Part shown: piece after piece, positions 1,816-55,633 of the stretch | Layout of the letters: each line of letters begins with the position of its first letter | How positions within the stretch are numbered: position 1 is the stretch's first letter | Origin: Candidatus Bathyarchaeota archaeon | GTDB lineage: Archaea; Thermoproteota; Bathyarchaeia; Bathyarchaeales; Bathycorpusculaceae | Length of the DNA stretch: 64,000 nt | Assembly (NCBI GenBank): GCA_013388895.1 | Contig: JACAEK010000056.1 | Coordinates: forward strand, 1 to 64,000 | Reading direction: 5' to 3' | Program-made: the position numbers and the translations under genes | The notes under the pieces: model-generated | Database searches by the model: none | Told to the model about the DNA's origin: nothing | The model's input: the letters and a program-made list of their open reading frames with translations, nothing else

Positions 1816-3051
1816 ATGGTGAGACAGAGCATGAGTAACAAGATATCTGTACCGTCTCAAAGTATCACAACGTTAGATCATGTCGACGGTGACTTGATAG
1901 TAGGTAGGCATTCAACCGTAAAAGCAAGAGGAACTCTACTAACAATAAATGTTGCTGGTACCATTTATTGCGAAGGAAACAACATTTTCGAGGGTAATGT
2001 TTCAGCAAAGAGTCTAGAAGCTGGAGACAACGTAATAATTCATGGTAATCTGCAAATAGAAACCGATGTTGAAGTTGAAGAAGGGCGCCTAGAAGTTTAC
2101 GAAAACATGACTGTGCGACATGTGGATATTGGCGAGGCCTTGTTTGTGGTTAAAAATCTGGTGGCTGAAGAAATTGACATTGGTGGAAGTTTGAAGGTTG
2201 ATGGAAATGTAAAGGCTCAAACTATTGATGTTGGTGGAAGTTTCAACGCTAAAGGAGAAGTAGAAACGAACAAAATAGACGTAGGAGGAAGTGTTTCAAC
2301 CGACTCCAAAGTGAACATTGAAAAGTTGGATGTTGGAGGCACAGCAAAAGTTCGCGGAGGAAGAATTCGTGAAATAGACGTGGGCGGAAGTTTTGAATCA
2401 AACGGTCCATTAGAGTTTGAAAGCATAGATGTGGGTGGAACTGTGCGACTTACTGAGCAAAGTGTAGGTAAGAAAATAGAGGTGGGAGGTTCATTTCGAG
2501 TTGAAGGAGACTTGAAGTTTGGAGAAATAGAAGTGGGAGGCAAAGTAGAGATAACAGGTTCAGGTGAGGGCGAAGAAGTAGAAGTTGGCGGAAAAGTAGA
2601 AGTCGGTGGAGGTTTAAAGCTTTCTGAAAAGCTTGAAGTGGGAGGCAAAGTAGAAGTTGGCGGAGAGTTATTAGCAAAGAACATTGAGGTTGGCGGAGTG
2701 GTACATGCGAAAAAGGCTACTGCTGAAGAACATATAGAAGTTGGTGGCGCAATAGCAACAATCGACGGCACGACCGCACGTTTTGTTGAAATAGGAAAAA
2801 AAGGTGAAGTTCAAGGACCTATAAAGGCAGACCAAGTTATTGTTGGCAAAGAAGCCCATGTAGAAAATATTTACGGGAAAGAGATTTTCCTAAGAAGTGG
2901 AGCCCACGCAGAAAACATATACGGTGAAATTGTCACAATTGAATCTCATTGTCAAATAAACGGAGAAGTCCTATACGTTGATGAGTTAAGGCTAGGTGAA
3001 CATGTGTCCTTAGCGAAATCTCCACAAAAGGTCAAATCCCTTCCATCATAG
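1816..3051 (+). CDS. Bactofilin-like beta-helical repeat protein
   Basis: This 411-residue protein has no signal peptide or membrane segment. It has an N-terminal bactofilin/polymer-forming-like segment (about 20-110: DGDLIVGRHSTVKARG, GTIYCEGNNIFEGNV). A central array of about a dozen 17-residue repeats (about 120-315) each begins with I-D/E-V-G-G. The C-terminal part (about 325-395) has ENIYGK/ENIYGE repeats. The periodicity and alternating hydrophobic residues predict a right-handed beta-helix or stacked beta rungs, as in bactofilins. The gene stands alone between a small hypothetical and a convergent PhoU-like gene. An internal ATG at 1831 is an alternative start. A polymerising structural or scaffold role is inference. 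Confidence 0.65.
   Translation: MVRQSMSNKISVPSQSITTLDHVDGDLIVGRHSTVKARGTLLTINVAGTIYCEGNNIFEGNVSAKSLEAGDNVIIHGNLQIETDVEVEEGRLEVYENMTVRHVDIGEALFVVKNLVAEEIDIGGSLKVDGNVKAQTIDVGGSFNAKGEVETNKIDVGGSVSTDSKVNIEKLDVGGTAKVRGGRIREIDVGGSFESNGPLEFESIDVGGTVRLTEQSVGKKIEVGGSFRVEGDLKFGEIEVGGKVEITGSGEGEEVEVGGKVEVGGGLKLSEKLEVGGKVEVGGELLAKNIEVGGVVHAKKATAEEHIEVGGAIATIDGTTARFVEIGKKGEVQGPIKADQVIVGKEAHVENIYGKEIFLRSGAHAENIYGEIVTIESHCQINGEVLYVDELRLGEHVSLAKSPQKVKSLPS
2173..2760 (+). repeat. 17-codon tandem repeats inside the beta-helix gene
   Basis: Successive units start with IDIGG, IDVGG, LDVGG, IEVGG, VEVGG or LEVGG, spaced 16-18 codons and mostly exactly 17. The repeats are diverged at DNA level, so this is an old amplification held by protein structure rather than a recent DNA repeat. 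Confidence 0.85.
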
Positions 3052-4136: not shown

Positions 4137-4723
4137 TTGAAGAGAAATGTTACAATCGGTATAGACTTGGCGTGAAAGCCACAAAATCCTACAGAACTAG
4201 CAATTTTGGATAACTGCAAGGTGAAAACGAGTCTACTTTACACAAACAATCAAATAATTGAGAGCATAACACAAAACGAACCTACTCTCCTAGCTATTGA
4301 TGCTCCTTTTAGTCTACCAAAAAAGGAATTCTCAGAAAAGCTGACAAAGAAATGATAACAAAGGGCTACCACGTTTTCCCTCCAAGCCTGCCAGCAATGA
4401 AAGAGCTGACTTTACGTGCTATGAAGCTGAACAAACTAGCAAAAGTAGAAGGATTCAAAACAATAGAAGTGCATCCAACGTCAACGCGTAAGGCTCGAGG
4501 CATGCCATTGAAAGAGTGGAAAAAAATTCAAACCATTCTAATACAAATAGGCTTATGGAGAGATCTCCTAAAACGCGCCTTAGCATCTCATGAGATTGAT
4601 GCAGTTACAGCGACGTTGACAGCATACCTATATACACAGAACAAGACAGAAGCATTAGGGGACGAAGAAGGAGGCTATATAATCATCCCAAAACAACAGG
4701 ATTGGAGAAAACTTCAGGTATGA
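4137..4723 (+). pseudogene. DUF429 family protein, broken by a TGA and a frameshift
   Basis: From a TTG at 4137 the frame reads MKRNVTIGIDLA, then TGA at 4173-4175, and continues in the same frame with KPQNPTELAIL and LLAIDAPFSLPK, stopping at 4353. The rest (MITKGYHVFPP, VEVHP-like IEVHPTS, EIDAVTATLTAYL) is in the +2 frame from 4352 to 4723. Joined together these match the order of motifs in DUF429 (RNase H-fold predicted nucleases): GIDLA, an IDAPLSLP-like motif, VFPP, EVHP and D-A. So one nonsense codon and one single-base shift near 4350 separate what was one gene of about 195 codons. Its stop overlaps the DP1 start (ATGA). It could be a true pseudogene or contain sequence errors. Confidence 0.75.
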
Positions 4724-6276
4724 ATGACGCGCAGAAGCTGCAAAAAGCCATAGAACTGACAATCGCTGCAGGGTACCAGATCGACAGTAACGCCTTTGAA
4801 TTTCTAAGCCTCTTGTCTTCAACACAAGACCCGACAGAAGTAATGAGCAAAGCAATATATGAGATAAACGCACTAAAAGAAAAGCCATTATTTATTGATA
4901 GAAGTTTCTTGGAAAAAATGGTGCAACCATTAAAACCAAAAATGGATGACTCCACTAAATTATTTGAGGAGCCACCTGCGCCACTTTTAGAGCCACATGT
5001 AACGGAAGGAAAGAAACAGTTCCACCCATATGCAAAAGAAATCGAGTCAAACATCAAAATACTTGGCGATCCTGCTAGCAAACTGAGTTCAAGTGGGGCC
5101 ATAGAGGATTACTTGGAGTATTTTCGAGATAGGTTCAAACGAATGGAGAAGTTACTGAGGCAACGAATGGATGTTAAAAACGCAACATCCATTTTAGATG
5201 CTTTAAGAGCATCAGCTAACATGCGACTTAAAGTTATAGGGATGATAACAGAGAAACGCGAATTCCAACAGAAAGTGTTGCTAACAGTGGAGGATTTGCA
5301 TGCAAACGTCACGATGCTCGTTCCACAAAACGCTTCAGCAGAGCTTATGGAAAAAGCTCATTTACTTATGCGCGATCAAGTTGTCTGCTTAAGCATTGTA
5401 AAGACGAGGAGTAATCTCTTAATCGTTGAAGACATAATTTTACCAGATATTGCACAAAAAGCCCAGCATAAGGCGCCCATTCCTGTATACGCGGTTTTAA
5501 CGTCAGACATACATGTGGGAAGCACAAAATTCCAAAAAGACTCCTTTAATCGTTTTATTTTATGGCTTAATGGAAAATACGGCGACGAAAAGATGAGAGA
5601 GATGGCAAGCCATGTCAAATATGTTCTAATAGCCGGCGATATTGTGGATGGAATAGGAATTTACCCAAATCAAGTGAAAGAGTTAGCAATTAAAGACGCA
5701 TACGGGCAATATAGGCTTGCAGCCAAATACATTGAGCAAATTCCCGATTATGTAGAAGTGCTAATTATACCTGGGAATCATGACGCTTCACGAAAAGCAT
5801 TGCCTCAACCAGCAATATCCAATGCTTTCTTAGAAATACTGCAAGAATCAAGAAATATCTATTCCCTTGGAAACCCATGCCTTACAAGCATACACGATGT
5901 CGAAGTATTATTGTACCATGGTCGTAGCTTAGATGACATTATTTCAACAGTTCCAGGCATGAATTTTAACCATCCGGAAAAAGCAATGAAACTATTGCTA
6001 CAGAGTCGCCATTTAGCGCCCATATATGGTGAAAAGACAATGTTGTCAGCAGAGATTAGAGATCATTTAGTTATCGAACATGTGCCCGACATATTTCATG
6101 CTGGCCACATTCACGTTTTAGGATATTGCAATTATCGCGGAGTCTTAACGGTGAACTCAGGCGCATGGCAAGATCAGACAGGCTACATGCAAAGATTAGG
6201 ACTAGTTCCTACGCCAGGAAAAGTTCCCCTAGTAAACCTTCAAACCTTAGAAGTTACAGTCGTCTCGTTCAATTAA
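4720..6276 (+). CDS. polB: DNA polymerase D small subunit DP1
   Basis: This is the proofreading subunit of archaeal replicative polymerase D. The 518-residue protein has a helical N-terminal region, an OB-like middle and a C-terminal calcineurin-like phosphoesterase domain that supplies the 3'-5' exonuclease. The metal-binding motifs are all present in order: SDIHVGS (about 257), GDIVDG (about 302), IPGNHD (about 350), LYHGRS and AGHIHVLGY (about 460). The ATG at 4720 overlaps the stop of the broken DUF429 gene, and an alternative start lies 6 codons upstream. The partner DP2 gene is 11 kb downstream on the same strand. Orc1 follows on the opposite strand. Confidence 0.95.
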   Translation: MNDAQKLQKAIELTIAAGYQIDSNAFEFLSLLSSTQDPTEVMSKAIYEINALKEKPLFIDRSFLEKMVQPLKPKMDDSTKLFEEPPAPLLEPHVTEGKKQFHPYAKEIESNIKILGDPASKLSSSGAIEDYLEYFRDRFKRMEKLLRQRMDVKNATSILDALRASANMRLKVIGMITEKREFQQKVLLTVEDLHANVTMLVPQNASAELMEKAHLLMRDQVVCLSIVKTRSNLLIVEDIILPDIAQKAQHKAPIPVYAVLTSDIHVGSTKFQKDSFNRFILWLNGKYGDEKMREMASHVKYVLIAGDIVDGIGIYPNQVKELAIKDAYGQYRLAAKYIEQIPDYVEVLIIPGNHDASRKALPQPAISNAFLEILQESRNIYSLGNPCLTSIHDVEVLLYHGRSLDDIISTVPGMNFNHPEKAMKLLLQSRHLAPIYGEKTMLSAEIRDHLVIEHVPDIFHAGHIHVLGYCNYRGVLTVNSGAWQDQTGYMQRLGLVPTPGKVPLVNLQTLEVTVVSFN

Positions 6277-6559: not shown

Positions 6560-7732
6560 TCAACTCTTATTGCGGGTGTTTTTGGAAAGGCACCTCGGGT
6601 CATAATCAGTCAAACGCCCAACCCGATCATCACTGGAGAGCACATCTTTGATTAGACAACGTGCCATCTCAAGCCTAATCTTTTTTGTGCGCCCATATCT
6701 TCCCATGCTTATTACCCTAGCATTCAAAAGCCCCATAGAATCAAGTTCGTTCACCAAAGTGCTCAAACGCCGCTGCGTTAAAGGCGAGACACCTAACTCT
6801 CCGCATATCTCTGTATAGACCTCGTAGATTTCCCCAGTATTAGCTTGATGCGCATCCGCTTTTTTCAGATGGTAGACGCTCAAAACCACAAGTTTAGAAT
6901 GCAAAGTCAAATTCTTAAGAGCCTCAACGACACGGTTGTGTTCAATATGCTTCTCAGCCTCTCTGACATGTTCTTCGCTTACGATAGTTGTACTCTTTCT
7001 TTCAGCAACTTCGCCAGCAACACGTAGCAAGTCTAGAGCCCGCCTGGCATCGCCATGTTCTGCAGCAGCCAAAGCAGCACACAGGCTAAGAGCAGAATCT
7101 GATAAAGCATCTTTGAAGAAGGCGATTTTTGCACGGTCAAGAAGGATGTTTCGCAATTCATAAGCATCATACGGCCTAAACACAATTTCCTCTTCACTCA
7201 ACGAACTGAAAACACGTGGATCAAGAAACTCTTTCAGTCGAAGATCATTTGATATGCCAATAAGAGATGTTTTGCTTTTTGTCAGCGTTTCATTGATTCT
7301 CGTCAATTCATAGAGAAGACTATCACCGCGCATTTTTATAAGTGAATCAATCTCGTCCAGCGCTACAATCAAAATGATATGCGAGGAATCTAGACTTGCT
7401 CTGAATCGTTCAAAGACTTCTCCGACAGATAAACCGGTGAAAGGAACTGAGACGCCTACACTTTGGCACAGTCTCGCAAAAACCCGGTACTCAGACCCTA
7501 CTACGCGACAGTTGATGTAACAGAATTTGACTGGCGCATTAAACTCCTTCGCTTTAGTCTCGAGATGGCTTAACACATATTTTGTTACAGCCGTCTTGCC
7601 TGTTCCGGTTTTTCCATAAATGAAGACGTTTGAACATCTTGCGCCCTTCAAGACTGGCGCAACTATCTCTCCAACTTGGCGAATCTGTTCTTCTCTATGG
7701 GGCAATGTGTCAGGTAAGTAATCATGCCGCAA
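6560..7732 (-). CDS. cdc6: Orc1/Cdc6 replication initiator
   Basis: This AAA+ initiator binds origin recognition boxes and loads MCM. From the first usable start (TTG at 7732) it has 390 residues. Walker A is GKTGTGKTAVTKYV (about 40-53), Walker B is ALDEIDSL (about 125), and sensor 1 is IGISND. A C-terminal winged helix follows (about 285-375, with PLTQRRLSTLVNELDSMGLL). Sequence upstream of the TTG, in frame to 7828, encodes NNILDDLFDKFASE and THIFEDREV, which fits the normal Orc1 N-terminus. However, it contains no ATG, GTG or TTG. The real gene therefore probably starts near 7827, through a non-standard start or after a one-base error. The non-coding region just upstream holds origin boxes. 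Confidence 0.93.
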   Translation of the reverse strand: MRHDYLPDTLPHREEQIRQVGEIVAPVLKGARCSNVFIYGKTGTGKTAVTKYVLSHLETKAKEFNAPVKFCYINCRVVGSEYRVFARLCQSVGVSVPFTGLSVGEVFERFRASLDSSHIILIVALDEIDSLIKMRGDSLLYELTRINETLTKSKTSLIGISNDLRLKEFLDPRVFSSLSEEEIVFRPYDAYELRNILLDRAKIAFFKDALSDSALSLCAALAAAEHGDARRALDLLRVAGEVAERKSTTIVSEEHVREAEKHIEHNRVVEALKNLTLHSKLVVLSVYHLKKADAHQANTGEIYEVYTEICGELGVSPLTQRRLSTLVNELDSMGLLNARVISMGRYGRTKKIRLEMARCLIKDVLSSDDRVGRLTDYDPRCLSKNTRNKS

Positions 7733-7954
7733 AACCTCTCTATCCTCGAAAATATGCGTTTCACTAGCAAACTTGTCGAAAAGGTCATCAAGTATATTAT
7801 TGTTGCGCGTAAAGTCTCCTCCTCCATCTTAGTTTTAGAGGCAATGCCTCATTTTCTTGTGAAGAAATAAGCACTGTCGTACAGAAAAGTGAATGCAGCA
7901 ACACAAAAATCTAAAAGTATTGAACATGTTACGGACGGCAAATAGAAAAAGAGT

Positions 7955-7977
7955 CACCCCACTATTTCTGGTGGAAG
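7955..7977 (-). promoter_or_regulatory. Degenerate ORB-like element
   Basis: On the minus strand this reads TTCCACCAG, then AAATAGT, then GGGG. It keeps the 7-base spacing between the core and the G run seen in the two better boxes, but has three mismatches in the 8-base core. Confidence 0.35.
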
Positions 7978-8146
7978 TTGCGAAACTAGCCTCCCAAAAA
8001 GGGTAAAGAAGTCTGATACTTACTCTTTAACTGTTATACTCTGGATTGTAATGCAACGAAGTTCTAATAAAATAGTTGTCCCTCAAAAATTTAGATGCAA
8101 AAATCTAGAAAATAGTCAACTGAATTTTCTTTCTGGTGCAGACTTT

Positions 8147-8167
8147 TCTCCAGTGGTTATGAAGGGG
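8147..8167 (+). promoter_or_regulatory. Origin recognition box (ORB) 1
   Basis: The element reads TCTCCAGTGG, TTATGAA, GGGG. It matches the archaeal ORB core TCCAGTGG followed by a G run 7 bases later, the contacts used by the Orc1 winged helix and AAA+ domain. It is inverted relative to the box at 8341-8362. Confidence 0.75.
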
Positions 8168-8173
8168 CGCCCC
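8164..8173. promoter_or_regulatory. Perfect palindrome GGGGCGCCCC at the ORB1 G run
   Basis: The G run of ORB1 forms the left arm of a perfect 10-bp palindrome, an unusually GC-rich island in an AT-rich region. Confidence 0.55.
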
Positions 8174-8228
8174 TGGTAAGTGGTTTGGAAATGAGGGATG
8201 CATTTTTCTTAAGACTATTTGCCTCTGT

Positions 8229-8246
8229 AATTTGTGTTCACAAATT
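8229..8246. promoter_or_regulatory. Inverted repeat AATTTGTG-TT-CACAAATT
   Basis: This element has 8-bp perfect arms separated by 2 bases. TTGTGAA occurs again just downstream (8245-8251 and 8256-8262) and TGTGAA again at about 8515 and 8530, close to the start of the winged-helix gene at 8558. The arrangement suggests operators, possibly for that protein, although an origin function is also possible. Confidence 0.45.
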
Positions 8247-8340
8247 GTGAAGACCTTGTGAAATTAACTTGCTCGTGTCTCTTTTCAGCTTCTTTTTGCT
8301 TTTCTTTCACGTTTTTCTGTACTTTTTCTGTGAAGATGCT

Positions 8341-8362
8341 ACCCCTTGCTTTCCACTGGAAA
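8341..8362 (-). promoter_or_regulatory. Origin recognition box (ORB) 2
   Basis: On the minus strand this reads TTTCCAGTGG, AAAGCAA, GGGGT. It is a near-perfect match to the archaeal ORB consensus, with the same 7-base spacing as ORB1 and opposite orientation. Confidence 0.8.
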
Positions 8363-8557
8363 TATATCCACAATGCTGCCTTATTGCGCTTTTGACTTCT
8401 GAGAAGACTGTGATGCTCGTAACTTCTAAACATCTACAATTTCGCCTTCTTTTTGCCTTTTTTACCTATTTAGACCCTTTGGTTTTTTGCGTTTTCACCA
8501 TAAACTCTATAACCTGTGAACTGCAATTTGTGAACACCAACTAGGTGCAAGCTGTCA

Positions 8558-8989
8558 ATGGCAACTAGGAAAATGCGTGTTGAAGTGTTCGATGGTGAAG
8601 GCAACAAATATACTGTGTCCTTTGAAGGACAGATCAGTAGAGAAAAGGCAATCCGGCTTTTAGAATTGGTGGAATTATTAGGTGGGGTGCCAAGTAGCGA
8701 AGGAAACGTCGCAGTCACTCAGTCAACTTCAAATAATGACATTTCGAAATATGAAAGAGTTCGCGCACTGATTCGCAAACACTTCCCCTTGGTTTGGTTT
8801 TCCTCCCGCGATGTCCAGCCGGTCTATGAGCAGGAATATAAAGAACTAATAAGTCTTAGCACTGTAGGAACTTACCTTGCCAGAATGACAGACAAGGGAT
8901 TCCTCGTGAAAGTTGGCTCCCCTAGAAGTTTGAAATATAAATTGACAATTAGCCTGCCTCAAGCCACGCTTAAACATCAGATATTATGA
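8558..8989 (+). CDS. Conserved-looking hypothetical with C-terminal winged helix
   Basis: This 143-residue protein has an N-terminal beta-hairpin-like segment (MRVEVFDGEGNKYTVSFEG) and a linker. Its C-terminal half is winged-helix-like, with KYERVRALIRKHFP, a helix-turn-helix around LISLSTVGTYLARMTDKGFL, and a wing RSLKYKL. It sits between the probable origin and the NurA-HerA pair, on the same strand as them. Operator-like inverted repeats lie just upstream, so autoregulation or control of nurA-herA is plausible. I do not recognise the family. Confidence 0.6.
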   Translation: MATRKMRVEVFDGEGNKYTVSFEGQISREKAIRLLELVELLGGVPSSEGNVAVTQSTSNNDISKYERVRALIRKHFPLVWFSSRDVQPVYEQEYKELISLSTVGTYLARMTDKGFLVKVGSPRSLKYKLTISLPQATLKHQIL

Positions 8990-9075: not shown

Positions 9076-10086
9076 ATGGAAGCCAAAATTAAAGAAGATT
9101 TAGTTGATATGGAAAAGAAATTTGTCTGGTACGTGGAAAAAGGGCGAGTTGCTGGTCCTGCTGAGGTTCATGAGGAACCGATGATTGCTCTTAAGCCAAA
9201 CCTCGACAGTATAAAACCCTTAAAAAAACTAGGCAACTTCAAAGGACAGTTTTGGGCGGTTGACTGTTCTACCAGAACTTTGAAGAGAGCAAACAACTGG
9301 GGCATCTACCTTATGCGCACAACATATGCTGCACTTGAGGGTCGTGATGTTAACTGGAATTACATGGAAAGAATATGTTCAGTAGTAGGGGATGCATATA
9401 CTCGTAGTAATTACTTGACCGACTTTAGAATTGAGTTAGAAAGCCAAATGGCTCTGCAACTTCTAAAGAATGATAGTATGACATACTACGAGTATCCTCG
9501 TAGTATTTACCTCCTCCTAGATGGCGGCGGCTATTTTGGTGGTGAAAGGAAATTTCGTGTGATATTGTATGAGGAAAGTAAGAAAAAGGGCATTAACCTT
9601 TTGGCAATAAGCAAAAATTCGCCCCTACTTCATGATGATAAAGGTCGTGACTTCATTGCTACTACGAGTACACTCTCACCCTATGACATTTGGGTTTACC
9701 ATCCAATTAGGCGAGCTGAGAAAGATCGTAGTCTCTACGGCGACATATCCATAGTAAAGCTGTGCCAGGAAAGCCAGCGCATTTTCCGGTGCGACATTAT
9801 GGATTACCTCACGAGTCAGGATGTAAGTGAAATCTTGTCACCTTTGACTTTTTCCTCTGTAGATCCAAGGTGTATGGGGTATCCAATTGCTCTTTGGCTT
9901 GCTCACGAGTTTTCTGCACCATCTGAATCTATGCTTCTTCATTATCACGACTTGGTTGAGAAGGAACTAGGTGCTGCTGGGCTTTTAGATATTCTTCGCA
10001 GAGAAGAACATACGTGCAGTTTCGCAGATGAAATTCACGGAGTAAGATATGCTTACCAACGGGAGTCTTGGGGTGAATATGTCTGA
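9076..10086 (+). CDS. nurA: NurA-like nuclease
   Basis: This is a 336-residue divergent NurA-domain protein. NurA is an RNase H-like nuclease that resects DNA ends together with the HerA translocase. The visible signs are a first acidic motif FWAVDCSTRT (about 58-67), a second LLLDGGG (about 149-155), and a later SKNSPLLHDD segment. The immediate HerA neighbour starts 8 bases before this gene ends, a strong sign of one complex. The sequence is far from the textbook NurA pattern, so the call leans on the partner. The start is ATG at 9076. Confidence 0.7.
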   Translation: MEAKIKEDLVDMEKKFVWYVEKGRVAGPAEVHEEPMIALKPNLDSIKPLKKLGNFKGQFWAVDCSTRTLKRANNWGIYLMRTTYAALEGRDVNWNYMERICSVVGDAYTRSNYLTDFRIELESQMALQLLKNDSMTYYEYPRSIYLLLDGGGYFGGERKFRVILYEESKKKGINLLAISKNSPLLHDDKGRDFIATTSTLSPYDIWVYHPIRRAEKDRSLYGDISIVKLCQESQRIFRCDIMDYLTSQDVSEILSPLTFSSVDPRCMGYPIALWLAHEFSAPSESMLLHYHDLVEKELGAAGLLDILRREEHTCSFADEIHGVRYAYQRESWGEYV

Positions 10087-11617
10087 ATCAATAGGCTTTG
10101 TGTGTGGAACCGAAGGAGACAAAGTATCTTTCTTCTTGAATCATGGGGTCTCGCTTTCTTATGGGCAAATTGTGAGAATAGATTCGGACGGAAGAAGCTT
10201 CTATGCAAGGGTCGTTAACGCCCAAAGTAGCTCTACTTTGAAGACAATCGAACAACTTCGTGAGGCTGAAGGCAAAGAGGCTTTTGGTCCCTACTCCAGT
10301 TTTCGAAACGTCGAAGCCGTTCTATTCTTAGAAAAAAGAGAAAACAAAATTCGCTCGCCGACTTTCAACCCAAACTATAGAGATAAAGTGTTCACTGCAA
10401 ATGAAGAGGATTGCACTATTCTGAGACTCTTTGGAGAACTTGAAGTAGGTCACCTACGTTCTGGAGAACAACTTCTAGGGTCTGCTGGAATAAATTTCGA
10501 AGCTATACCGTTAATGATGGGCATGTTCGGAATGACTGGTTCGGGAAAAACCAATACTGAATTGATTCTTAATGCGCAAATTATTGACAATAGCCCTCAA
10601 ACAGTTGCGCTTATCTTCGATTTTGCAGGGCAGCTTCTTGAAGGAAAAGGAATTAAACCACAAAAGGGGCTAAAAGATCATCCATTATTTTCTATCAAGG
10701 TTCAATATTATTCTGCAAGAGATAGAAAAATGATTGTTGGCTTATACACAATCACTCCTGAGAAACTAATTACACTCTTTCCCGATTTGGGGGTTCCTCA
10801 ATTTAGGCTTGCTCGAAAACTACACAGAAAAATTGGCAAAGGCTGGATTCAAGAAGTTAGAGAGGTTTATGGTGCTGAAGGCTATGCTGGTGTCGGCCGC
10901 CTCGCAGATTACAAGATGAAACATGTTATAGAGGCTCTATTACTTAAGATATCCTCTCTTTCTCACGACCTTTTCCCATCATCTGACTATAGCTTTGTTG
11001 ACAGCGTCACCCAGAACATAGCTAAGGGGATAACGTGCCTAGTCGACATTTCGGGGATGAGTTCTGATGAACAAAATAAAATCGTATGCCTTACAGCATC
11101 AACAGTGGCCCAACATTATAAGCACATGTGGGAAGAAAACTACGAGGAATGGAAGAAGTTGCCCACCCTTCTCATAACCTTAGAAGAGGCACACGAATTT
11201 CTTGACCCGAACAAATTAAGAACAATATTCTCCGATATTGCTCTAACGTATCGTAAATACCGCGTTGGGCTTAACGCTGTGACGCCTAGACCTTCGCGAA
11301 TTAACTTTGACGTTTTTGCCGAGTTATGGACAAAAGTGATTATGAAGACAGAGCTGCGCAAAGACAGAATTTATCTAACCGAAAACACACCTTACTTGGA
11401 ATACAGCGATACAGAGATAAAAATGCTAGATGTTGGCGAGGCCCTGCTTATATCAGAACCAAAAATCAAGTTCGCCGTACCAATAAAAGTGACCCATTAC
11501 CCCGAATATTTGACCAAAAAAGGAAAAGAAGGCTATGAACTACCTGAATCACAGAATCTTTCAGAAATGGATAAACGCCTAAGGCAACTGAATGAACAAA
11601 AATCTCTTTCTTTATAG
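10079..11617 (+). CDS. herA: HerA-like DNA translocase ATPase
   Basis: This 512-residue hexameric FtsK/HerA-type ATPase pumps DNA for NurA-driven end resection in recombination repair. It has an N-terminal HAS-barrel-like domain (about 1-110), Walker A GMTGSGKTNTE (about 153-163), an IFDFAGQL motif, and Walker B LLITLEEAHEFL (about 360-371). It also has the arginine-bearing YRKYRVGLNAVTPRPS. The C-terminal TKKGKEGYELPES tail resembles HerA. The ATG at 10079 overlaps nurA by 8 bases. No Mre11 or Rad50 genes are nearby. The pair could be housekeeping or part of a defence-type HerA-nuclease set. Confidence 0.85.
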   Translation: MSESIGFVCGTEGDKVSFFLNHGVSLSYGQIVRIDSDGRSFYARVVNAQSSSTLKTIEQLREAEGKEAFGPYSSFRNVEAVLFLEKRENKIRSPTFNPNYRDKVFTANEEDCTILRLFGELEVGHLRSGEQLLGSAGINFEAIPLMMGMFGMTGSGKTNTELILNAQIIDNSPQTVALIFDFAGQLLEGKGIKPQKGLKDHPLFSIKVQYYSARDRKMIVGLYTITPEKLITLFPDLGVPQFRLARKLHRKIGKGWIQEVREVYGAEGYAGVGRLADYKMKHVIEALLLKISSLSHDLFPSSDYSFVDSVTQNIAKGITCLVDISGMSSDEQNKIVCLTASTVAQHYKHMWEENYEEWKKLPTLLITLEEAHEFLDPNKLRTIFSDIALTYRKYRVGLNAVTPRPSRINFDVFAELWTKVIMKTELRKDRIYLTENTPYLEYSDTEIKMLDVGEALLISEPKIKFAVPIKVTHYPEYLTKKGKEGYELPESQNLSEMDKRLRQLNEQKSLSL

Positions 11618-11620
11618 CAA

Positions 11621-12334
11621 CTATGGGTTACTTTCAGCCTTTTTAAGAAGTTTACTCATTTCCTCCTTGACATGATATTTAAACGGAATTTTGCTAGTGT
11701 CCCGCTCTAAATAGCCTCCTTCATAAAGCTTCTTCATCAACCTCGCGGTATGTTCCCTACTGAGCCTAATTTTCTCTTTAATTTCAGGCGCTGTTTTAGG
11801 GCCTTCCAAAGCCAGCATCTCCAGCGCGGACAATTCTGTTTCCGTTAATGGAGCTAATGCTTTTTCTCTTTTTATCGGTATTACCGCTTCAATTTTTGCC
11901 TCGGGGGCAATCAGAGACTGTCGAGCTTGCTCCTCTATTGTAGAAAACTTGACAACTAACGCCTCTTGTGACATGGCGATATCATGCACTTTTCGGTCGA
12001 TTTCATCTAAGCGTTTGACTTCGGTTTCTCTGTTTTCTGTCGCAGTGCTGACTTTACTTTCTAGGTCTGGAATCTTCTTATTTGCTTCTTCTGCATTTTT
12101 CAAAGCATGATCACTTTTCGAGGAAACTGCTTCAACCTTATACGCTATACGCTCCAGCTTGTCAGCTTCCTGCTTGAATTGTCTGTTGAAGCTTAGAACA
12201 ATGTCTTCAACGGCTTCTCTCGCCTTTTCATACTCCTTCTTAACACTTCGCAGTTGCCTATAATACTCCACCGCGGCGCCTGCGGTCACAGCGAGCAGAA
12301 TACCAGCTAGAATCAGCAAAACTTCTTCAATCAA
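11621..12334 (-). CDS. Membrane-anchored coiled-coil winged-helix protein
   Basis: This 237-residue protein has an N-terminal transmembrane helix (about 4-24, EEVLLILAGILLAVTAGAAV). A long coiled coil follows (about 28-150, rich in E/K heptads such as KEYEKAREAVEDIVLSF). The C-terminal winged helix (about 165-225) includes LTETELSALEMLALEGPKTAPEIKEKI, SREHTARLMKKLYEGGYLERD and a wing KIPFKYHVK. A DNA-binding head tied to the membrane could act as a membrane-bound regulator or tether chromosome regions. It converges on herA. TGTGAT repeats lie directly upstream. Confidence 0.7.
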   Translation of the reverse strand: MIEEVLLILAGILLAVTAGAAVEYYRQLRSVKKEYEKAREAVEDIVLSFNRQFKQEADKLERIAYKVEAVSSKSDHALKNAEEANKKIPDLESKVSTATENRETEVKRLDEIDRKVHDIAMSQEALVVKFSTIEEQARQSLIAPEAKIEAVIPIKREKALAPLTETELSALEMLALEGPKTAPEIKEKIRLSREHTARLMKKLYEGGYLERDTSKIPFKYHVKEEMSKLLKKAESNP

Positions 12335-47716: not shown

Positions 47717-48235
47717 TCATTCAACGGCTTCCACCTCTTTCGTTTGCACTTTTTCGACTGTTATTCTGCACGGGATTGGGAGTTTTGCGCTTCCGAGTTT
47801 AAGTGCTTTTTTGGCTGTTTCAACACCGTCTGCGTTTACGTTTATGGTGATGATTGGTTGGTTTGTTTTTATATGGGCTGCTGTTCCGATGGGTTTTCCG
47901 AAGGATCTGCGCATGCCGTCTTGTAGGCGGTCTGCGTGTGCACCAAAGATCATTTTGTTTTCTCTTAGGATTGTGTGTGGGTATGGGTGGACTTGCATGA
48001 GGTAGTTGTTTACGAGTTTTTCCATTAGTTCGCGGTTTGTTGCTACGCGTGCGGCTTCTAGGGCGTTGTGGCGGATTTGAGCTTCTTGTAGGGCGATTAG
48101 TTGTGCTTGGTATTCGAATTTTGTTTTTGTGTCGCCCATGGTGAATTTGTTTATTTTTGGTGCTGGGAAGCCTTTTACGAAGTCTGTTCTAGTGTAGGCT
48201 CGTCCTTTTGGGTGTCTGTAGTTTTTTGCTCGCAT
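47717..48235 (-). CDS. rpl10e: Ribosomal protein L10e
   Basis: This 172-residue large-subunit protein starts RAKNYRHPKGRAYTRTDFVKGFPAPKI and contains RVATNRELMEK and ENKMIFGAHADRLQDGMRRSFGKPIGTAA (about 108-136), diagnostic for L10e (bacterial L16). The coding strand is extremely A/C-rich. It is followed at once by ppsA. A TATA-like GTTTAAATAG lies upstream on the minus strand near 48270-48278. Confidence 0.95.
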   Translation of the reverse strand: MRAKNYRHPKGRAYTRTDFVKGFPAPKINKFTMGDTKTKFEYQAQLIALQEAQIRHNALEAARVATNRELMEKLVNNYLMQVHPYPHTILRENKMIFGAHADRLQDGMRRSFGKPIGTAAHIKTNQPIITINVNADGVETAKKALKLGSAKLPIPCRITVEKVQTKEVEAVE

Positions 48236-48269
48236 TTTGAATATCCCCTTTTGGTTAGCTTGGGTGCGC

Positions 48270-48278
48270 TATTTAAAC
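48270..48278 (-). promoter_or_regulatory. Candidate TATA box for rpl10e
   Basis: On the minus strand GTTTAAATAG lies about 35-40 bases upstream of the L10e ATG at 48235, a good archaeal promoter spacing for a short leader. Confidence 0.5.
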
Positions 48279-48346
48279 GATTTGTTGATGTTTGGTTTTG
48301 ATTAAAGTTATGAATTGTGGATATGGTTTTAGAATTAGAATGTGGT

Positions 48347-48859
48347 TTATGGTTTGTTTTTTTGCCATGTTTCGGCGAGTTCTTCGTAGTTTGGGAAGAT
48401 TTTGCGTAGGATGGGGATGTATATTTGTTTTTCTTCTTCGGTTAGGTATTGGAATTGGTATTCGCCTGTGTATGGTGATGGTTCACCTTCGCGCGTGACG
48501 AATTCTATGTGCATGAATGGGTCTCCGCGTTTGATTGTGATTGGGTGGCGGTCGTTGCTGAGGTTTACTAGTTCTAGGACTAGTCTGCCGATGAAGCCGC
48601 TGTGGGCTTTTGCGGCGTTTAGGAAGCTTAGGCCCATGCGTCCGTATTTGCTTTTGGCTGTCATGTGTGCTACGTAGTTGGGTGGGACGAATACTATTTC
48701 GTATGTTGTTAGGTTTTTGTGTTCGAGATAATGTAGTGTGGTTTCTTGTTTGACTGTGAGTATGTAGCTGTCGCCGTCGAGGAGGTTGTGGTCGTATGGG
48801 TATATGCATTTGTATTGTTCGATGAGTTCTTTGAGTTTGTCTTTGCCAAGTATGCACAT
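48347..48859 (-). CDS. dcd: dCTP deaminase/dUTPase-like protein
   Basis: This 170-residue trimeric dUTPase-fold protein contains AKSKYGRMGLSFLNAAKAHSGFIGRLVLELVNLS (about 69-102), matching the dCTP deaminase core, plus DGDSYILTV and a C-terminal YTGEYQFQYL. It would make dUMP or dUTP for thymidylate synthesis. The gene has strong A/C bias in its coding strand. Its leader ends CAGAGGCTAA just before the ATG, shared with the acetyltransferase at 53171. Confidence 0.8.
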   Translation of the reverse strand: MCILGKDKLKELIEQYKCIYPYDHNLLDGDSYILTVKQETTLHYLEHKNLTTYEIVFVPPNYVAHMTAKSKYGRMGLSFLNAAKAHSGFIGRLVLELVNLSNDRHPITIKRGDPFMHIEFVTREGEPSPYTGEYQFQYLTEEEKQIYIPILRKIFPNYEELAETWQKNKP

Positions 48860-49045
48860 AGTATTAGCCTCTGGTGGTGTGGTATAGTGCGGTTGTTTTG
48901 TTGTATTAAAGCTTTCTAGACATGATTGTGCGTGTGTGCAACACTGTCTAAGGCCCTCTATTTGGATCCTAATAGGTTTTCTTGTGAATTTGTGAATGGG
49001 TTTGTTAGGGATAGTTGTGTGGTTGCGGAAAAATTAGGTTGTTTT

Positions 49046-49813
49046 TTAGAGGTGTTGTGGGTGTGGGCGGGGGTGTTGTATTTTTTGGGCTGTGATTCCG
49101 TCGTATTCTATGGCTTTTGTTTCGCCTGTTTTTAGGTTTGTGTATAGGGCTCTGTATCTTGGTGTGTAAATTATTGCGCGTTCATTGATTTCGAAGAGTT
49201 CGTTGTTGAGTCTGTTTATGTCTTTTGGGCGTTTGAGTATTCTGGAGCGGATTGTGTCTAGGTCTGTGTCTTGGGTGATTTCTTTTACTCTGTATGTTGT
49301 TAGTATTTCTTTGGGGTTTGGTTCTGGTGGGGTGGATGGAAGTTCTTTTGGTTTGATTTCTTGTCCAAATTTGTCTAGGATAAGCGATGCTTTTGCTTCT
49401 GTTGTTAGTCGTTCTTCTCCTTGGAGTTTGATTACGTTGTGGTCTTTCGTTGGGTTGTCTGTTGGTTGGCTGGGTTTGTATTTTTGGTTTGAGAGGATGA
49501 CTTCGTGTACTTTGTTGTCGACTTTGACTGTGTAGACGCATTTGCGGTAGTAGTCTATCATGTATCTGCCGCTGATTGCCATGTAGGGTTCGTAGTATTT
49601 GTCGATGGAGAGGAGTTGGATTTCTTCTGGTTTGGGTTTCATGAATCCGAATCTGGTGAACAGTTGCGTTTTGGTTTGCTCTCCTATTGTTTCTATTACG
49701 TTTGGTTCTATGCGTGTTTCGTAAACGATAATGCTTCTTTCGGCTATTTTTTCGCTGGATGGCGTTGTTGTGGTGGATATGACTATTTTTTCTTCGGATA
49801 CTGATTCGGTCAT
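49046..49813 (-). CDS. Hypothetical protein (255 aa)
   Basis: I do not recognise this protein. It is soluble. An N-terminal hydrophilic tail (SEEKIVISTTTTPSSEKIAE) precedes beta-strand-like segments such as YEPYMAISGRYMIDYYRKCVYTVKVDNKVHEVIL (about 73-106). A C-terminal repeat of the same style follows (NERAIIYTPRYRALYTNLKTGETKAIEYDG, about 211-240). The coding strand is very A/C-rich like its neighbours, which supports it being a real gene. It lies directly beside the Argonaute operon on the same strand, 104 bases downstream of the pAgo stop, but differs from it in composition. Confidence 0.65.
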   Translation of the reverse strand: MTESVSEEKIVISTTTTPSSEKIAERSIIVYETRIEPNVIETIGEQTKTQLFTRFGFMKPKPEEIQLLSIDKYYEPYMAISGRYMIDYYRKCVYTVKVDNKVHEVILSNQKYKPSQPTDNPTKDHNVIKLQGEERLTTEAKASLILDKFGQEIKPKELPSTPPEPNPKEILTTYRVKEITQDTDLDTIRSRILKRPKDINRLNNELFEINERAIIYTPRYRALYTNLKTGETKAIEYDGITAQKIQHPRPHPQHL

Positions 49814-49917
49814 GTGTAGACCTTTTGATTTTGTTTGGTGTTTTGTGGGTAATATGGATTATGTACTAGAAAAATGAATCGTCGGTTAACTTTTCTTTGG
49901 CATCTCTTTAGGTTAAT

Positions 49918-51444
49918 TTACATATAAAACCGGTACTCAGGTCTTGGAATGACTTCTTCTGGAACATATGCAAGGATTTTTCCAACTTCACTAGCATATT
50001 CAAGGGTTATTGGCTTTCTAATACAGAAATCTGCGCTATTCCAGTTCATTTTTGTTAAGGAAAATATCTCTTGACAGATAATCTCTAGCGATGAATCGCC
50101 ATGATGTTCCACAATCTCTATTGGAGTTGGGACTCTAAGTCCTGGATATGTTTCAAGATAGCGTGAGTATCCTTTTGTAAAGAGAAGATAGTCACTGTTT
50201 CCTATTTGAATCACAGTTCCCCTCAAAGGCGGGTATATTCCCTTTTTTCGCATGAATCTTATGCCTCGTGTCTCAATTGTAACAAAGTCTCTCTGTTTGA
50301 CGTTCTTTGCTCCTTTCTCAAAACCAGCAAGTTCATCTGGTTTATACCTAGAGCTTTTGTGGACAACGAGTCTTCTTGGGAGTTGCCGCATTTGTTTCTC
50401 GTATTCCTTGAGCACATCAATGATTAGTTGATAGGCACCTTTTTCTGTAAGATGAGGAGAACCTGTGACTTCATCTATTATTGCACGACTTCCCCTAAGA
50501 ACTAGACCTTCCCCGGTATGAGTAAAAACTTGGGCAATGCTCGACTTCATGTTTCCTCTTGAATCTGGTGGGTCTTTGTAGAAAGACACACCGACGTAGC
50601 ATGTACCACTTTCCATGTTTGCCAACTTCCAAGGATATCCTTCTGCCTTGTAGTAAATGGCAACGGAGAAATTCCATGCGCGTGTCGCTTCATCCTGAAG
50701 AGTTTGGTCTGTAGAGTCTGTTCTAAGTGTTCGCGGCTTTACAAGTTGTGTTGGAATATCCAGTTGCATTGCCCCGACTTTTATTAGACGTCTTAAATTG
50801 CTTGCCTCAGATGTTCTTTCAATATCCTCCTCACGTATTGGAAATAAAGTTGTTTGACCAGTTCTACGATGCTTCTTGATCTTCTCTAGTATCTTCTTTT
50901 CTTTTTCAGTGAGTCTGATTCTTACTGTAGCATATCCTCTTGTTTTTGTTGCACACTTATCTACGATTTCCTGAGGCAATGCGCAAATTACAACGTGAGG
51001 TCTAGGTTCTCGTCCTTTAAAATTAGATAGTTTTTCAATGAATAGTCTTGCAGCTTCCTTTACTCTCCGTTGAAAACCTCTTATTTCCAAGACTTGTTCA
51101 GTCTCTTCCCTTGTCAACGTTTCTATACATTCATTTAGAATATATAACTTACAGCCAAATATTTTAGTGAAACCAGGAAATGATTGAAAAAGCAGAGAAT
51201 TATCTTTCTTTGCAGGAATTTCACCTTGGCATCTTTCAATCCATTGTTGGACTAGGCTTATTGTTTCTCCTGAGCCAACAATTCCTAGTCTTATTGAAGA
51301 GGATATTGCTCGCCTGTTATCATACAAGCAAGGACCATATGCCAGCAATCCTTTTTTGGGATCAATATATCGCTTACCATCTCCAAATGCAAGCCAAGGT
51401 TCTTCGATAAATATGGACTTAAAAGCTTGTGTCATGATCTTCAT
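49918..51444 (-). CDS. Short prokaryotic Argonaute (MID-PIWI, catalytically inactive)
   Basis: This 508-residue short pAgo lacks N and PAZ domains. The PIWI core shows CYVGVSFYKDPP (about 284), VFTHTGEGLVLRGS (about 309-322), RRLVVHKSSRYKPDEL (about 356-371), GNSDYLLFTKGYSRY and RKPITLEYASEVGKILAYV (about 477-495). The first catalytic aspartate of the usual Y-G-D strand is Ser here, so target slicing is not expected, as in other short pAgos. The ATG at 51444 overlaps the stop of the APAZ gene (ATGA). The pair would bind a guide and sense invading nucleic acid, with the partner as effector. Confidence 0.88.
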   Translation of the reverse strand: MKIMTQAFKSIFIEEPWLAFGDGKRYIDPKKGLLAYGPCLYDNRRAISSSIRLGIVGSGETISLVQQWIERCQGEIPAKKDNSLLFQSFPGFTKIFGCKLYILNECIETLTREETEQVLEIRGFQRRVKEAARLFIEKLSNFKGREPRPHVVICALPQEIVDKCATKTRGYATVRIRLTEKEKKILEKIKKHRRTGQTTLFPIREEDIERTSEASNLRRLIKVGAMQLDIPTQLVKPRTLRTDSTDQTLQDEATRAWNFSVAIYYKAEGYPWKLANMESGTCYVGVSFYKDPPDSRGNMKSSIAQVFTHTGEGLVLRGSRAIIDEVTGSPHLTEKGAYQLIIDVLKEYEKQMRQLPRRLVVHKSSRYKPDELAGFEKGAKNVKQRDFVTIETRGIRFMRKKGIYPPLRGTVIQIGNSDYLLFTKGYSRYLETYPGLRVPTPIEIVEHHGDSSLEIICQEIFSLTKMNWNSADFCIRKPITLEYASEVGKILAYVPEEVIPRPEYRFYM

Positions 51445-52808: not shown

Positions 52809-53170
52809 TTAACTTTAGGCCTATCATTAAGAAAGATCATGAACAGCCTGAAAAATCATTTATTTTTCTCTAGTCCTTATTCATACTAACCACATCGGCA
52901 TTTCATAAGTAAGAGAGAGGAGAAAAACTGCTCCCCTCCAAATCCTCAAAGTCCGAAGTCCTACTCGTATACCACAAAGATATACCAGAAACCTTCTCCT
53001 TTTCAAAATCCAAAAAAATATTACAAGTCTGACTTTTGGCACCTTCTATAAATTCTTCACCCAACACACTCTTAACTAACTAACAGAAAAGGCGGAAACA
53101 ACCACAACCAAAAATTCAATCTATATATAAGGGGGGTCTAGACAAAACACACACAGAGGCTAACACCCTT
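52809..53170. other. Non-coding gap with the acetyltransferase promoter
   Basis: No convincing gene is seen. Composition changes from normal to A/C-rich on the plus strand at about 52900, matching the acetyltransferase and PCNA genes that follow. A frame reading EVLLVYHKDIPETF (about 52952-52995) ends at a TGA near 53020. It has no start and may be a remnant or chance. Confidence 0.4.
53121..53130 (+). promoter_or_regulatory. TATA box for the zinc-finger acetyltransferase / PCNA unit
   Basis: CTATATATAA is followed by a G-rich run. A start of transcription about 26 bases on would give a leader of about 20 bases containing CAGAGGCTAA (53154-53163) before the ATG at 53171. Confidence 0.65.
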
Positions 53171-53776
53171 ATGAAATGCAAACACTGCCAAAACCCAGCA
53201 ACATACAAATGCACAGTCTGCGGAGCACTACTATGCCCACAACACACCCGACTACAAACCACCTGCCCAACACACACAACCAAAACCACACCAATACGCT
53301 ATACAATCACCAAAGCCACAACCGACAAAGAAAAAAGCCAAATCCAAAAGCTCGTAAAACAATTCTGGGGCGAGCCACAACAACTCACATTCAACAAAAC
53401 CTACACCATAACAAACCTCCCAACATACATAGCAAAAACCAGACAAAACAGCATAATAGGCTTCATCACCTACACACAAACAAAAAACGCCACACTAATC
53501 ATCGCCCTAGCTATCCATCCACAACACCAAAACAAAGGCATAGCCAAACGCCTAATAGCAAAAATAGAAACAGAAGCCAAACAACAAAAAAAGAAACGAC
53601 TACTTGTTTCAACATCAAACGACGACCTACCCGCACTCGCATTCTACCAACACCTCGGCTTCCAAACAACCCAAATAAAACCAAACGTAATAGCACAAAA
53701 ACACGGCACAACACTCAAAGGCATAGGCGGACTGCCAATAAGAGACGAAATAAGATTGCAAAAAACAATTGAATAA
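53171..53776 (+). CDS. Zinc-finger plus GNAT acetyltransferase
   Basis: This 201-residue protein begins with a small zinc finger CKHC...CTVCGALLCPQHTR (about 3-27), B-box/HIT-like. The GNAT domain follows, with LIIALAIHPQHQNKGIAKRLIAKIE (about 109-133) and PALAFYQHLGFQTTQI. The coding strand is extremely A/C-rich. It is the first gene of the PCNA-PriL unit and is read from its own TATA box. The zinc finger may choose a protein substrate. The gene next door is PCNA, but no link is shown. Confidence 0.82.
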   Translation: MKCKHCQNPATYKCTVCGALLCPQHTRLQTTCPTHTTKTTPIRYTITKATTDKEKSQIQKLVKQFWGEPQQLTFNKTYTITNLPTYIAKTRQNSIIGFITYTQTKNATLIIALAIHPQHQNKGIAKRLIAKIETEAKQQKKKRLLVSTSNDDLPALAFYQHLGFQTTQIKPNVIAQKHGTTLKGIGGLPIRDEIRLQKTIE

Positions 53777-53825
53777 GCCTTTTATTCCTTACCAACCAAT
53801 ATCCAATAGAAAGGAGAAAACCATC

Positions 53826-54581
53826 ATGTTCACACTCAAAGTAGCTGACGCCAAACTACTAAAAGACATGATAACCAGCATAAGCATACTCGTAGACGAA
53901 GCCACATTCAAAATCGACCCCGACGGCATAAAACTCCGCGCAATGGACCCAAGCCGCGTCGCCATGATAGACTTCGAATGGCCAAAAACCATGTTCGAAG
54001 AATACTCCGCCTCAGAACCAACAAAAATGTGCATAAACATATCCGAACTACTAAAACTACTCAAAAGAACCAGCAAAGACGAAATAGTCGAACTAAACCT
54101 AGACGAAAAAACCGCAAAACTACAACTAAAAATCACAGGCAAATACCAGCGAAGCTTCACAATGCCCACACTCGAAGCCACAGAAGAAGAAGTCCCAACG
54201 CCAAAAGTCACCTTCAACGTCAAAGCCAAAGCTACAACACAAGGGCTAAGCCAAGCAATCGAAGACGCACAACTCGTAAGCGACCACGTCAAAATCGAAG
54301 CAGACCCAGAAAAACTGGTCTTAAACGCATCCGGCGACCTCATGGGCGCCACAATAACACTCCAAAAAGGAAGCGACACACTACTAGACCTAGAAACAAA
54401 AGAGCCCGCAAAAGCCACATTCAGCCTTAGCTACCTAGCCGAAATCATAAAAGCAGCATCAGCAACATCCGACATAGCAACACTCGAATTCTCATCCGAC
54501 ATGCCAATAAAACTAGACTTCCAACAAACAAAAGAAGGAAAACTAACATTCTATTTGGCACCAAGAATCGAAACAGAATAA
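53826..54581 (+). CDS. pcn: PCNA sliding clamp
   Basis: This 251-residue clamp has DEATFKIDPDGIKLRAMDPSRVAMIDFEWP (about 22-51), the classic first-domain signature. TISLQ-like and LAPRIETE ends follow, the latter being the C-terminal tail contacted by PIP-box partners. I chose the ATG at 53826, preceded by AAAGGAG. The gene is strongly A/C-rich. It is followed by priL after 14 bases, so both are in one replication operon. Confidence 0.95.
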   Translation: MFTLKVADAKLLKDMITSISILVDEATFKIDPDGIKLRAMDPSRVAMIDFEWPKTMFEEYSASEPTKMCINISELLKLLKRTSKDEIVELNLDEKTAKLQLKITGKYQRSFTMPTLEATEEEVPTPKVTFNVKAKATTQGLSQAIEDAQLVSDHVKIEADPEKLVLNASGDLMGATITLQKGSDTLLDLETKEPAKATFSLSYLAEIIKAASATSDIATLEFSSDMPIKLDFQQTKEGKLTFYLAPRIETE

Positions 54582-54595
54582 ACAGGAAACACAAA

Positions 54596-55633
54596 ATGCA
54601 AACCGTATTCTCCAAACTAGCCAAGAACGACTATGCAAAATACCCATTCCTAAAAGACGCAACCAAATACGTGAAAACACCCAACCTAAAAATCGAAGAC
54701 CTAGAAGACCCCAGCCTGGAAAAAATCCTAAACCGCGCCGAACAAAGAGTAAAAGACGCAATACTCTACAACACCATCAACAAAACACCACACTTTGACG
54801 AAGACATCGAACTAATGTCATTTCCCATCGCAATAATATTAGCCGTCGCCACCAAAAACGCCTACATCCAAAAAAGATACGCTCTGGCAGAAGCAAAACG
54901 AGCAACCGAGGACCTAAAAAAAGAACCAAAAGAAAAAATCCTCAAAATCGCACAAAACTTCGAATGGAAACTTGACACAACAACGTCAGAAAAAATACCC
55001 GGCGAATTTTCGCTCAAATTCACCGACTACCTCCGCAATATAACACATTTACAAACCAAAGAATGGAAACTCGTTAACCACATCCTGTTAAATGGGAACA
55101 TCCATCTAACAAAAGATGAAACAGCAAGACTGTTACAAGAGGAAATCCGCAAACATATTGAAAAAAGACTAGAAATCAAGGAACTACCGAACTTTCCACC
55201 TAAAATAATTGAAACGGCGGAAAAAATAAAGAAATTAGCTGCGGAAAAAATAGGTAAAGCTGAAATGGAAGGTTTTCCAGAAATCATATCGCAGTCAGCC
55301 TTCCCACCATGCATAAACGCGCTCTATGAGGCAATTTCAAAAGGACGCCACCTCTCACATGTTGGTCGATTCACCTTGACGTCTTTTCTTGTGAACATCG
55401 GCATGTCACCAGACAAAGTGATCGAATTATTCAAGAACTTCTCCGATTACAACGACAGAATGACTCGCTATCAAGTAGAGCATATAGCAGGTGAAAGAGG
55501 TTCTAGAACACACTACAAGCCTCCAAAATGCACTACCTTACAGACACACGGAGTTTGCACAAACTCAGACAAGAGGTGCAAAAAAATCCGTAATCCACTG
55601 GGATATTACAAGAACAAACTTGAGTCATCATAA
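54596..55633 (+). CDS. priL: DNA primase large subunit PriL
   Basis: This 345-residue regulatory primase subunit has an N-terminal helical part (FSKLAKNDYAKYPFLKDATKYV). A C-terminal iron-sulfur domain follows with cysteines at PPCINALYEAISKGRHLSHVGRF (about 239-261) and CTTLQTHGVC...CKKIRNPLGYY (about 311-338). DNA composition switches inside the gene at about 55090 from A/C-rich to normal. The catalytic partner priS is 5.8 kb downstream, beyond the glycan cluster. Confidence 0.95.
   Translation: MQTVFSKLAKNDYAKYPFLKDATKYVKTPNLKIEDLEDPSLEKILNRAEQRVKDAILYNTINKTPHFDEDIELMSFPIAIILAVATKNAYIQKRYALAEAKRATEDLKKEPKEKILKIAQNFEWKLDTTTSEKIPGEFSLKFTDYLRNITHLQTKEWKLVNHILLNGNIHLTKDETARLLQEEIRKHIEKRLEIKELPNFPPKIIETAEKIKKLAAEKIGKAEMEGFPEIISQSAFPPCINALYEAISKGRHLSHVGRFTLTSFLVNIGMSPDKVIELFKNFSDYNDRMTRYQVEHIAGERGSRTHYKPPKCTTLQTHGVCTNSDKRCKKIRNPLGYYKNKLESS

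Follow-up and report, generated by a model that had tools for sequence, protein, structure and literature searches.

A probable ORB-type chromosomal replication origin with a second conserved repeat beside orc1 in a bathyarchaeal genome

The spacer between the initiator gene orc1 and a divergently oriented gene encoding a protein of 143 amino acids in a Candidatus Bathyarchaeota archaeon (contig JACAEK010000056.1 of assembly GCA_013388895.1, of which positions 1 to 64,000 constitute the window analysed here) very probably represents an Orc1-dependent origin of replication (oriC) of the bathyarchaeal chromosome, of the type defined by origin recognition boxes (ORBs), as judged from its sequence. 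A probable oriC beside orc1, with a layout resembling that of known archaeal origins, had been proposed by a model that saw only the letters of the window (the sequence-only reading), and this proposal is supported by the finding that the boxes are unique, conserved and adjoin orc1. The same reading missed an array of TTCACA repeats and the conserved winged-helix protein encoded by the divergent gene. The assignment places a replication origin in the Bathyarchaeia, a class for which metagenomes are the main source of knowledge.

ORB boxes and the conserved spacer

The exact box pattern TCCAGTGG-N7-GGGG was searched for in the window and then in the whole metagenome-assembled genome of 1.58 Mb, and across this genome it occurs only at 8149-8167 (+) and 8342-8360 (-); the two exact boxes, one per strand, of the sequence-only reading are thereby borne out, with coordinates that were 1 to 2 bases off. 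A third copy at 7957-7975 (-) has 3 mismatches to this pattern, while the looser family pattern TCCANNNGAAANNNNGGGG has 2 exact matches genome-wide, at 7957 and 8342, and no other ORB cluster was found in this genome by pattern search. The best three sites of the 64 kb according to a position weight matrix, trained on the boxes of relatives, neither the window nor its congener being included, are these same three, the fourth-ranked match scoring 9.3 bits and the maximum over 20 order-1 Markov sequences being 13.0. The box near 7955, which had been described as weaker, does exist, and its score is the second highest, that of the box at 8149 being the lowest. The boxes carry the TCCA-TGGA core and the G-string of an archaeal oriC of the ORB type, and the letters TCCA...TGGAAA...GGGG are shared with the boxes of the known Pyrococcus and Sulfolobus origins. 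The features concerned are as follows:

6560-7810 (-): orc1/cdc6 initiator gene of the orc1-1 type (Pfam Cdc6_C 3e-28 and Cdc6_lid 7e-25; TIGR02928 3e-126; N-terminal comparison)
7957-7975 (-): ORB c, the orc1-proximal box, TCCACCAGAAATAGTGGGG; 21.3 bits over 7954-7978; found near -245 in the majority of family relatives
7976-8148 (no strand): probable duplex-unwinding element between the inverted ORB c and ORB b; 66.5% AT
8149-8167 (+): ORB b, TCCAGTGGTTATGAAGGGG, exact match; 15.9 bits over 8146-8170; its counterpart in relatives is the inverted box near -430
8342-8360 (-): ORB a, TCCAGTGGAAAGCAAGGGG, exact match; 24.3 bits over 8339-8363; the box at about -680 in relatives

In the relatives, which were taken from a genome collection and are mostly named Bathyarchaeota or Bathycorpusculum, orc1 is almost always divergent from the gene of the 143-amino-acid protein, with a spacer of 825-905 bases, and the three boxes, read along orc1, lie at about -680 (+), -430 (-) and -245 (+). 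A lack of conservation of the boxes in close relatives had been set beforehand as one outcome that would refute the reading as an origin, and conservation proved pronounced: at the 110 loci where the two genes are adjacent, the matrix found 316 matches within the spacers (90 kb in total), as compared to 3 in the flanks (750 kb), with the box order + - + at 80 of the loci. The matrix was trained on 22 of the 110 loci, where matches arise by construction, and the remaining loci and the low flank count are independent of the training. The divergent arrangement of orc1, ORBs and gene extends across the Bathyarchaeia and beyond, and in distant groups of the phylum, f21 and f51 among them, the ORBs are kept and the layout mostly so. 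A fourth ORB-like box, of degenerate sequence (TTCCA-N3-GAAAT in relatives), was present near the start or promoter of orc1 in 21 of 24 spacers, and may serve autoregulation.

The region of strand opening is most likely flanked by the inverted boxes at 7957 (-) and 8149 (+), and not by the pair at 8149 and 8342, to judge from composition and spacing. The unwinding element was placed at 7976-8148 because the corresponding inner interval of 22 relatives is richer in AT (78%, as compared to 68% for the other inter-box interval) and of fixed length (spacing 183 +/- 3, as compared to 256 +/- 10), and because in the window this interval holds the 60-mer of lowest stability in the spacer (approximately 8058-8117, top 0.3%). 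The spacer as a whole had been called AT-rich and gene-free; the former holds to a modest degree, at 62% AT where the window averages 59% (within the top 5% for stretches of equal length), and the latter is confirmed, apart from short open reading frames (ORFs) judged to be spurious. An Rfam scan for structured RNA returned none here, its only match being a tRNA at 100-231.

The TTCACA repeat and its candidate reader

The hexamer TTCACA is the most enriched of the spacers, with 165 copies observed as compared to 12 expected from flank density, and its count in the window is 7 versus 0.9 in shuffles. The copies flank ORB a on both sides and lie mostly outside 7976-8148, and an element resembling TTCACA-N4-TGTGAA is present in nearly all aligned relatives. 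The repeats and the candidate reader are distributed as follows:

7858-7863 (-): isolated TTCACA, which the alignment places in the degenerate fourth ORB-like box at the orc1 promoter
8229-8246 (no strand): palindrome AATTTGTG-TT-CACAAATT, with TTCACA repeats inside it, in the interval from ORB b to ORB a
8237-8242 (+), 8246-8251 (-) and 8257-8262 (-): TTCACA repeats
8329-8334 (-): TTCACA repeat adjoining ORB a
8515-8534 (-): two TTCACA repeats, at 8515-8520 and 8529-8534, kept in nearly all 24 aligned spacers
8558-8989 (+): divergent gene of the 143-amino-acid protein, with a predicted N-terminal beta-beta-alpha element and winged helix (AlphaFold, Foldseek); candidate reader of TTCACA

The two repeats at 8515-8534 are situated just downstream of CTATAAC (8507), the TATA-like element of this gene, which is the divergent one, and from this position they appear operator-like. 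An autoregulatory operator of the winged helix-turn-helix (wHTH) gene was nonetheless rejected as the whole explanation of the repeat, which keeps to the orc1 side where the gene has been relocated. In groups f26, f40 and f30, where the wHTH gene is not beside orc1, the repeats are still found upstream of orc1 and are missing upstream of the wHTH gene, and at L103, where orc1 lies at a distance of 3 kb, the wHTH gene has both the ORBs and the repeats beside it; the repeat is for these reasons considered to belong to the origin. Its sequence varies, being TTAACA in f21, f48 and f51 and mostly TCAACA in f67. Genome G107 has an intact origin with two ORBs, without the TTCACA repeats and without the winged-helix gene, and all three features are retained in its group member G455.

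The AlphaFold model of the 143-amino-acid protein has a mean predicted local distance difference test score of 72, rising to about 90 in the winged helix, and its recognition helix is predicted at approximately residues 100-113. Foldseek matches were to RosR, MecI, MarR and Fur-type folds, no Pfam family scored above its cut-off, and a wHTH profile search gave no convincing relative of solved structure. Membership of the BlaI/MecI family (PF03965) was considered and not assigned, as the window protein scored 18.8 bits and the best relative tried 22.3, as compared to a cut-off of 22.6, the likeness being limited to the winged helix. Of 397 genomes of the phylum, 246 have the gene, in single copy, and it occurs in 95 of the 115 class genomes that are at least 92% complete. 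It is almost confined to genomes with an orc1-1 type initiator; the class genomes without the winged-helix gene mostly lack orc1-1 or have a contig break at the origin, G107 being the one clear exception. Mostly complete Bathyarchaeia of group f17 (G459-G466 and G368) lack both orc1-1 and the winged-helix gene, both of which are present in G444 of the same group, and in these lineages replication may start in another way, or their bins may miss the origin region. Residue 102, which occupies the third position of the predicted recognition helix, is T in proteins that accompany TTCACA and, as a rule, V, I, L or A in those that accompany TTAACA or TCAACA; among 123 columns it has the strongest association with repeat type, also when the main TTAACA clade is left out.

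Proposed mechanism and alternative explanations

We propose that Orc1 from the adjacent gene would bind the three ORBs, and that the inverted inner pair at 7957 (-) and 8149 (+) would bracket 7976-8148 as the site of MCM loading and strand opening. The winged-helix protein would bind the TTCACA repeats of the far side of the origin, the palindrome between ORB b and ORB a among them, and would act as an origin cofactor of an architectural or regulatory kind and repress its own gene through the two promoter repeats. We lean slightly towards the proposition that this protein binds the repeat and serves as both origin cofactor and autoregulator. On a wider proposal our judgement is evenly divided: a two-component origin code may operate across much of the Thermoproteota, made up of Orc1 with its ORBs and of the winged-helix protein, encoded usually by a gene divergent from orc1, which would read TTCACA or TTAACA and coevolve with it via one recognition-helix residue. 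A named protein and a named DNA repeat are thereby proposed as the second component of an origin, with a specificity rule of a single residue.

Several observations set limits to these proposals. With regard to the origin, neither GC skew nor strand-corrected third-position skew inverts at orc1 in G052 (1.46 Mb contig) or G318 (1.50 Mb, one contig), which are noisy samples of about half coverage; the skew extremes elsewhere in these two are equally weak, and no convincing inversion was seen anywhere in them. Absence of a skew inversion was among the conditions set beforehand for refuting the sequence-only reading, but the flat profiles of these two relatives count neither for nor against an origin at this site. 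With regard to the cofactor, only about five changes at residue 102 are implied across the phylogeny, and the pair test for this residue comprises 3 to 6 independent pairs, too few for significance. L012 and L087 have switched T102 to A with the repeat unchanged, a few Orc1 columns likewise correlate with repeat type, and members of f16 (L280-L283) have the protein without TTCACA on the orc1 side.

The boxes and repeats may instead be only operators, through which Orc1 and the winged-helix protein regulate their divergent promoters, the working origin being elsewhere; the two TTCACA copies straddling the wHTH gene promoter and the degenerate ORB at the orc1 promoter are in keeping with this, and the skew lends no support to an origin here. 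We regard it as highly improbable, as three strong ORBs, spaced at fixed distances over some 400 bp, surround an AT-rich core, the ORBs at L103 have not parted from the repeats despite the distance of orc1, the repeats remain in the orc1-side spacer after the wHTH gene has moved, and the genome holds no other ORB cluster. That the chromosome has several origins, of which the present site is one and possibly not the main one, appears unlikely: multi-origin chromosomes are common in the Thermoproteota, skew is flat and a second Orc1 paralogue (orc1-2) is present in most family genomes, but the orc1-2 locus was ruled out as a second ORB origin, no ORB-like boxes being found at this locus in 18 genomes, and pattern search revealed no second cluster in the genome analysed here.

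The origin may be real and TTCACA be read by something other than the product of the neighbouring gene, namely Orc1, the Orc1-2 paralogue or a general chromatin protein such as that which binds the ucm motif in Sulfolobales (UBP). The presence of the repeats at origins of genomes in which the wHTH gene is unlinked, and the Orc1 columns that track repeat type, are consistent with this, as is the precedent of UBP, a general nucleoid protein able to read an origin motif (PMC12141716). It is nevertheless the position at residue 102 that is the best-associated wHTH column, with or without the TTAACA clade, the protein is missing from G107, whose intact origin lacks the repeat, and it is found almost only alongside an orc1-1 type initiator, and so we hold a different reader to be possible, if somewhat doubtful.

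Neighbouring genes and known origin systems

The orc1 ORF is listed from a TTG at 7732, and homology runs on to 7810. The codon at 7808-7810 (minus strand) is ACG, as it is at L011 and L036, where nearly all relatives have ATG, and it is preceded by the purine-rich GGAGGAGGAG. As the congener has the same ACG, it is not an error of a single assembly, and it is possible that it represents a non-standard start codon which limits Orc1 synthesis. Among the flanking genes that had been named from sequence, orc1, the DNA polymerase D small subunit and a HerA-type ATPase were recovered by profiles, while the ORF called NurA had no Pfam or NCBIfam match. The polymerase gene is the following:

4702-6276 (+): DP1, DNA polymerase D small subunit, a context gene (NF003118 above cut-off)

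The NurA-like/HerA pair (9076-11617) is absent beside the origin in most family relatives (L014-L034), and a marR-like gene (11621-12334) stays near the origin in family relatives. Elsewhere in the window, 1816-3051 encodes a long repetitive protein with many 'DVGG/EVGG' units and a polymer-forming or bactofilin-like look, the repeats of which give strong GC skew. Extreme and opposite GC/AT skew was observed at 48000-50000 (about +0.37/-0.45) and at 53000-55000 (about -0.4/+0.5), and may reflect long genes, repetitive or of low complexity, that lie on opposite strands.

A search of a literature collection with few subscription journals found no bathyarchaeal origin, no TTCACA at archaeal origins and no such pair of repeat and reader. 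The spacer shares with oriC of Pyrococcus and oriC1 of Sulfolobus the inverted boxes around an AT-rich stretch adjoining orc1 (PMC4010727, PMC2643942), and with euryarchaeal origins the presence of orc1 and DP1 as neighbours (PMC2643942), DP1 being near orc1 or the origin in Thermococcales, Halobacteriales and Methanosarcinales (PMC4010727, PMC2643942). It differs from the Pyrococcus and Sulfolobus ORB origins in its three boxes of conserved + - + order within a spacer of about 870 bp, and in its second conserved array, of TTCACA, with the conserved divergent winged-helix gene. Group f21 has the layout of orc1, ORBs and wHTH gene observed here, with TTAACA replacing TTCACA, different ORB letters (CCTGGAATGGAAATnAAGGGGT) and the box order + + -. 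This group may be the family of Nitrosopumilus maritimus (Nitrosopumilaceae), for which a single mapped origin is reported by Pelve et al. 2013, as cited in PMC4010727; if so, it includes cultured species.

The use of a conserved non-Orc1 motif at origins together with a small DNA-binding protein is shared with the ucm/UBP system of the Sulfolobales (PMC12141716). UBP is described as a saddle-shaped nucleoid protein of 111 amino acids that has many sites along the chromosome and acts on a single motif within the unwinding element (PMC12141716), and by this description it is set apart from the multi-copy repeat found here, mostly outside the unwinding element, and its origin-linked winged-helix candidate. 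If the present proposal is true, a non-Orc1 factor would be used at archaeal origins outside the Sulfolobales too. WhiP of Sulfolobus oriC3 is likewise a winged-helix protein encoded beside an origin; it is described as Cdt1-related and as initiating replication at an origin that has no ORBs (PMC4010727), a description from which the present system departs in having Orc1 and ORBs. An ORB origin by itself is of a known kind, and it is the conserved second repeat, with the winged-helix protein as its likely reader, that sets the present one apart.
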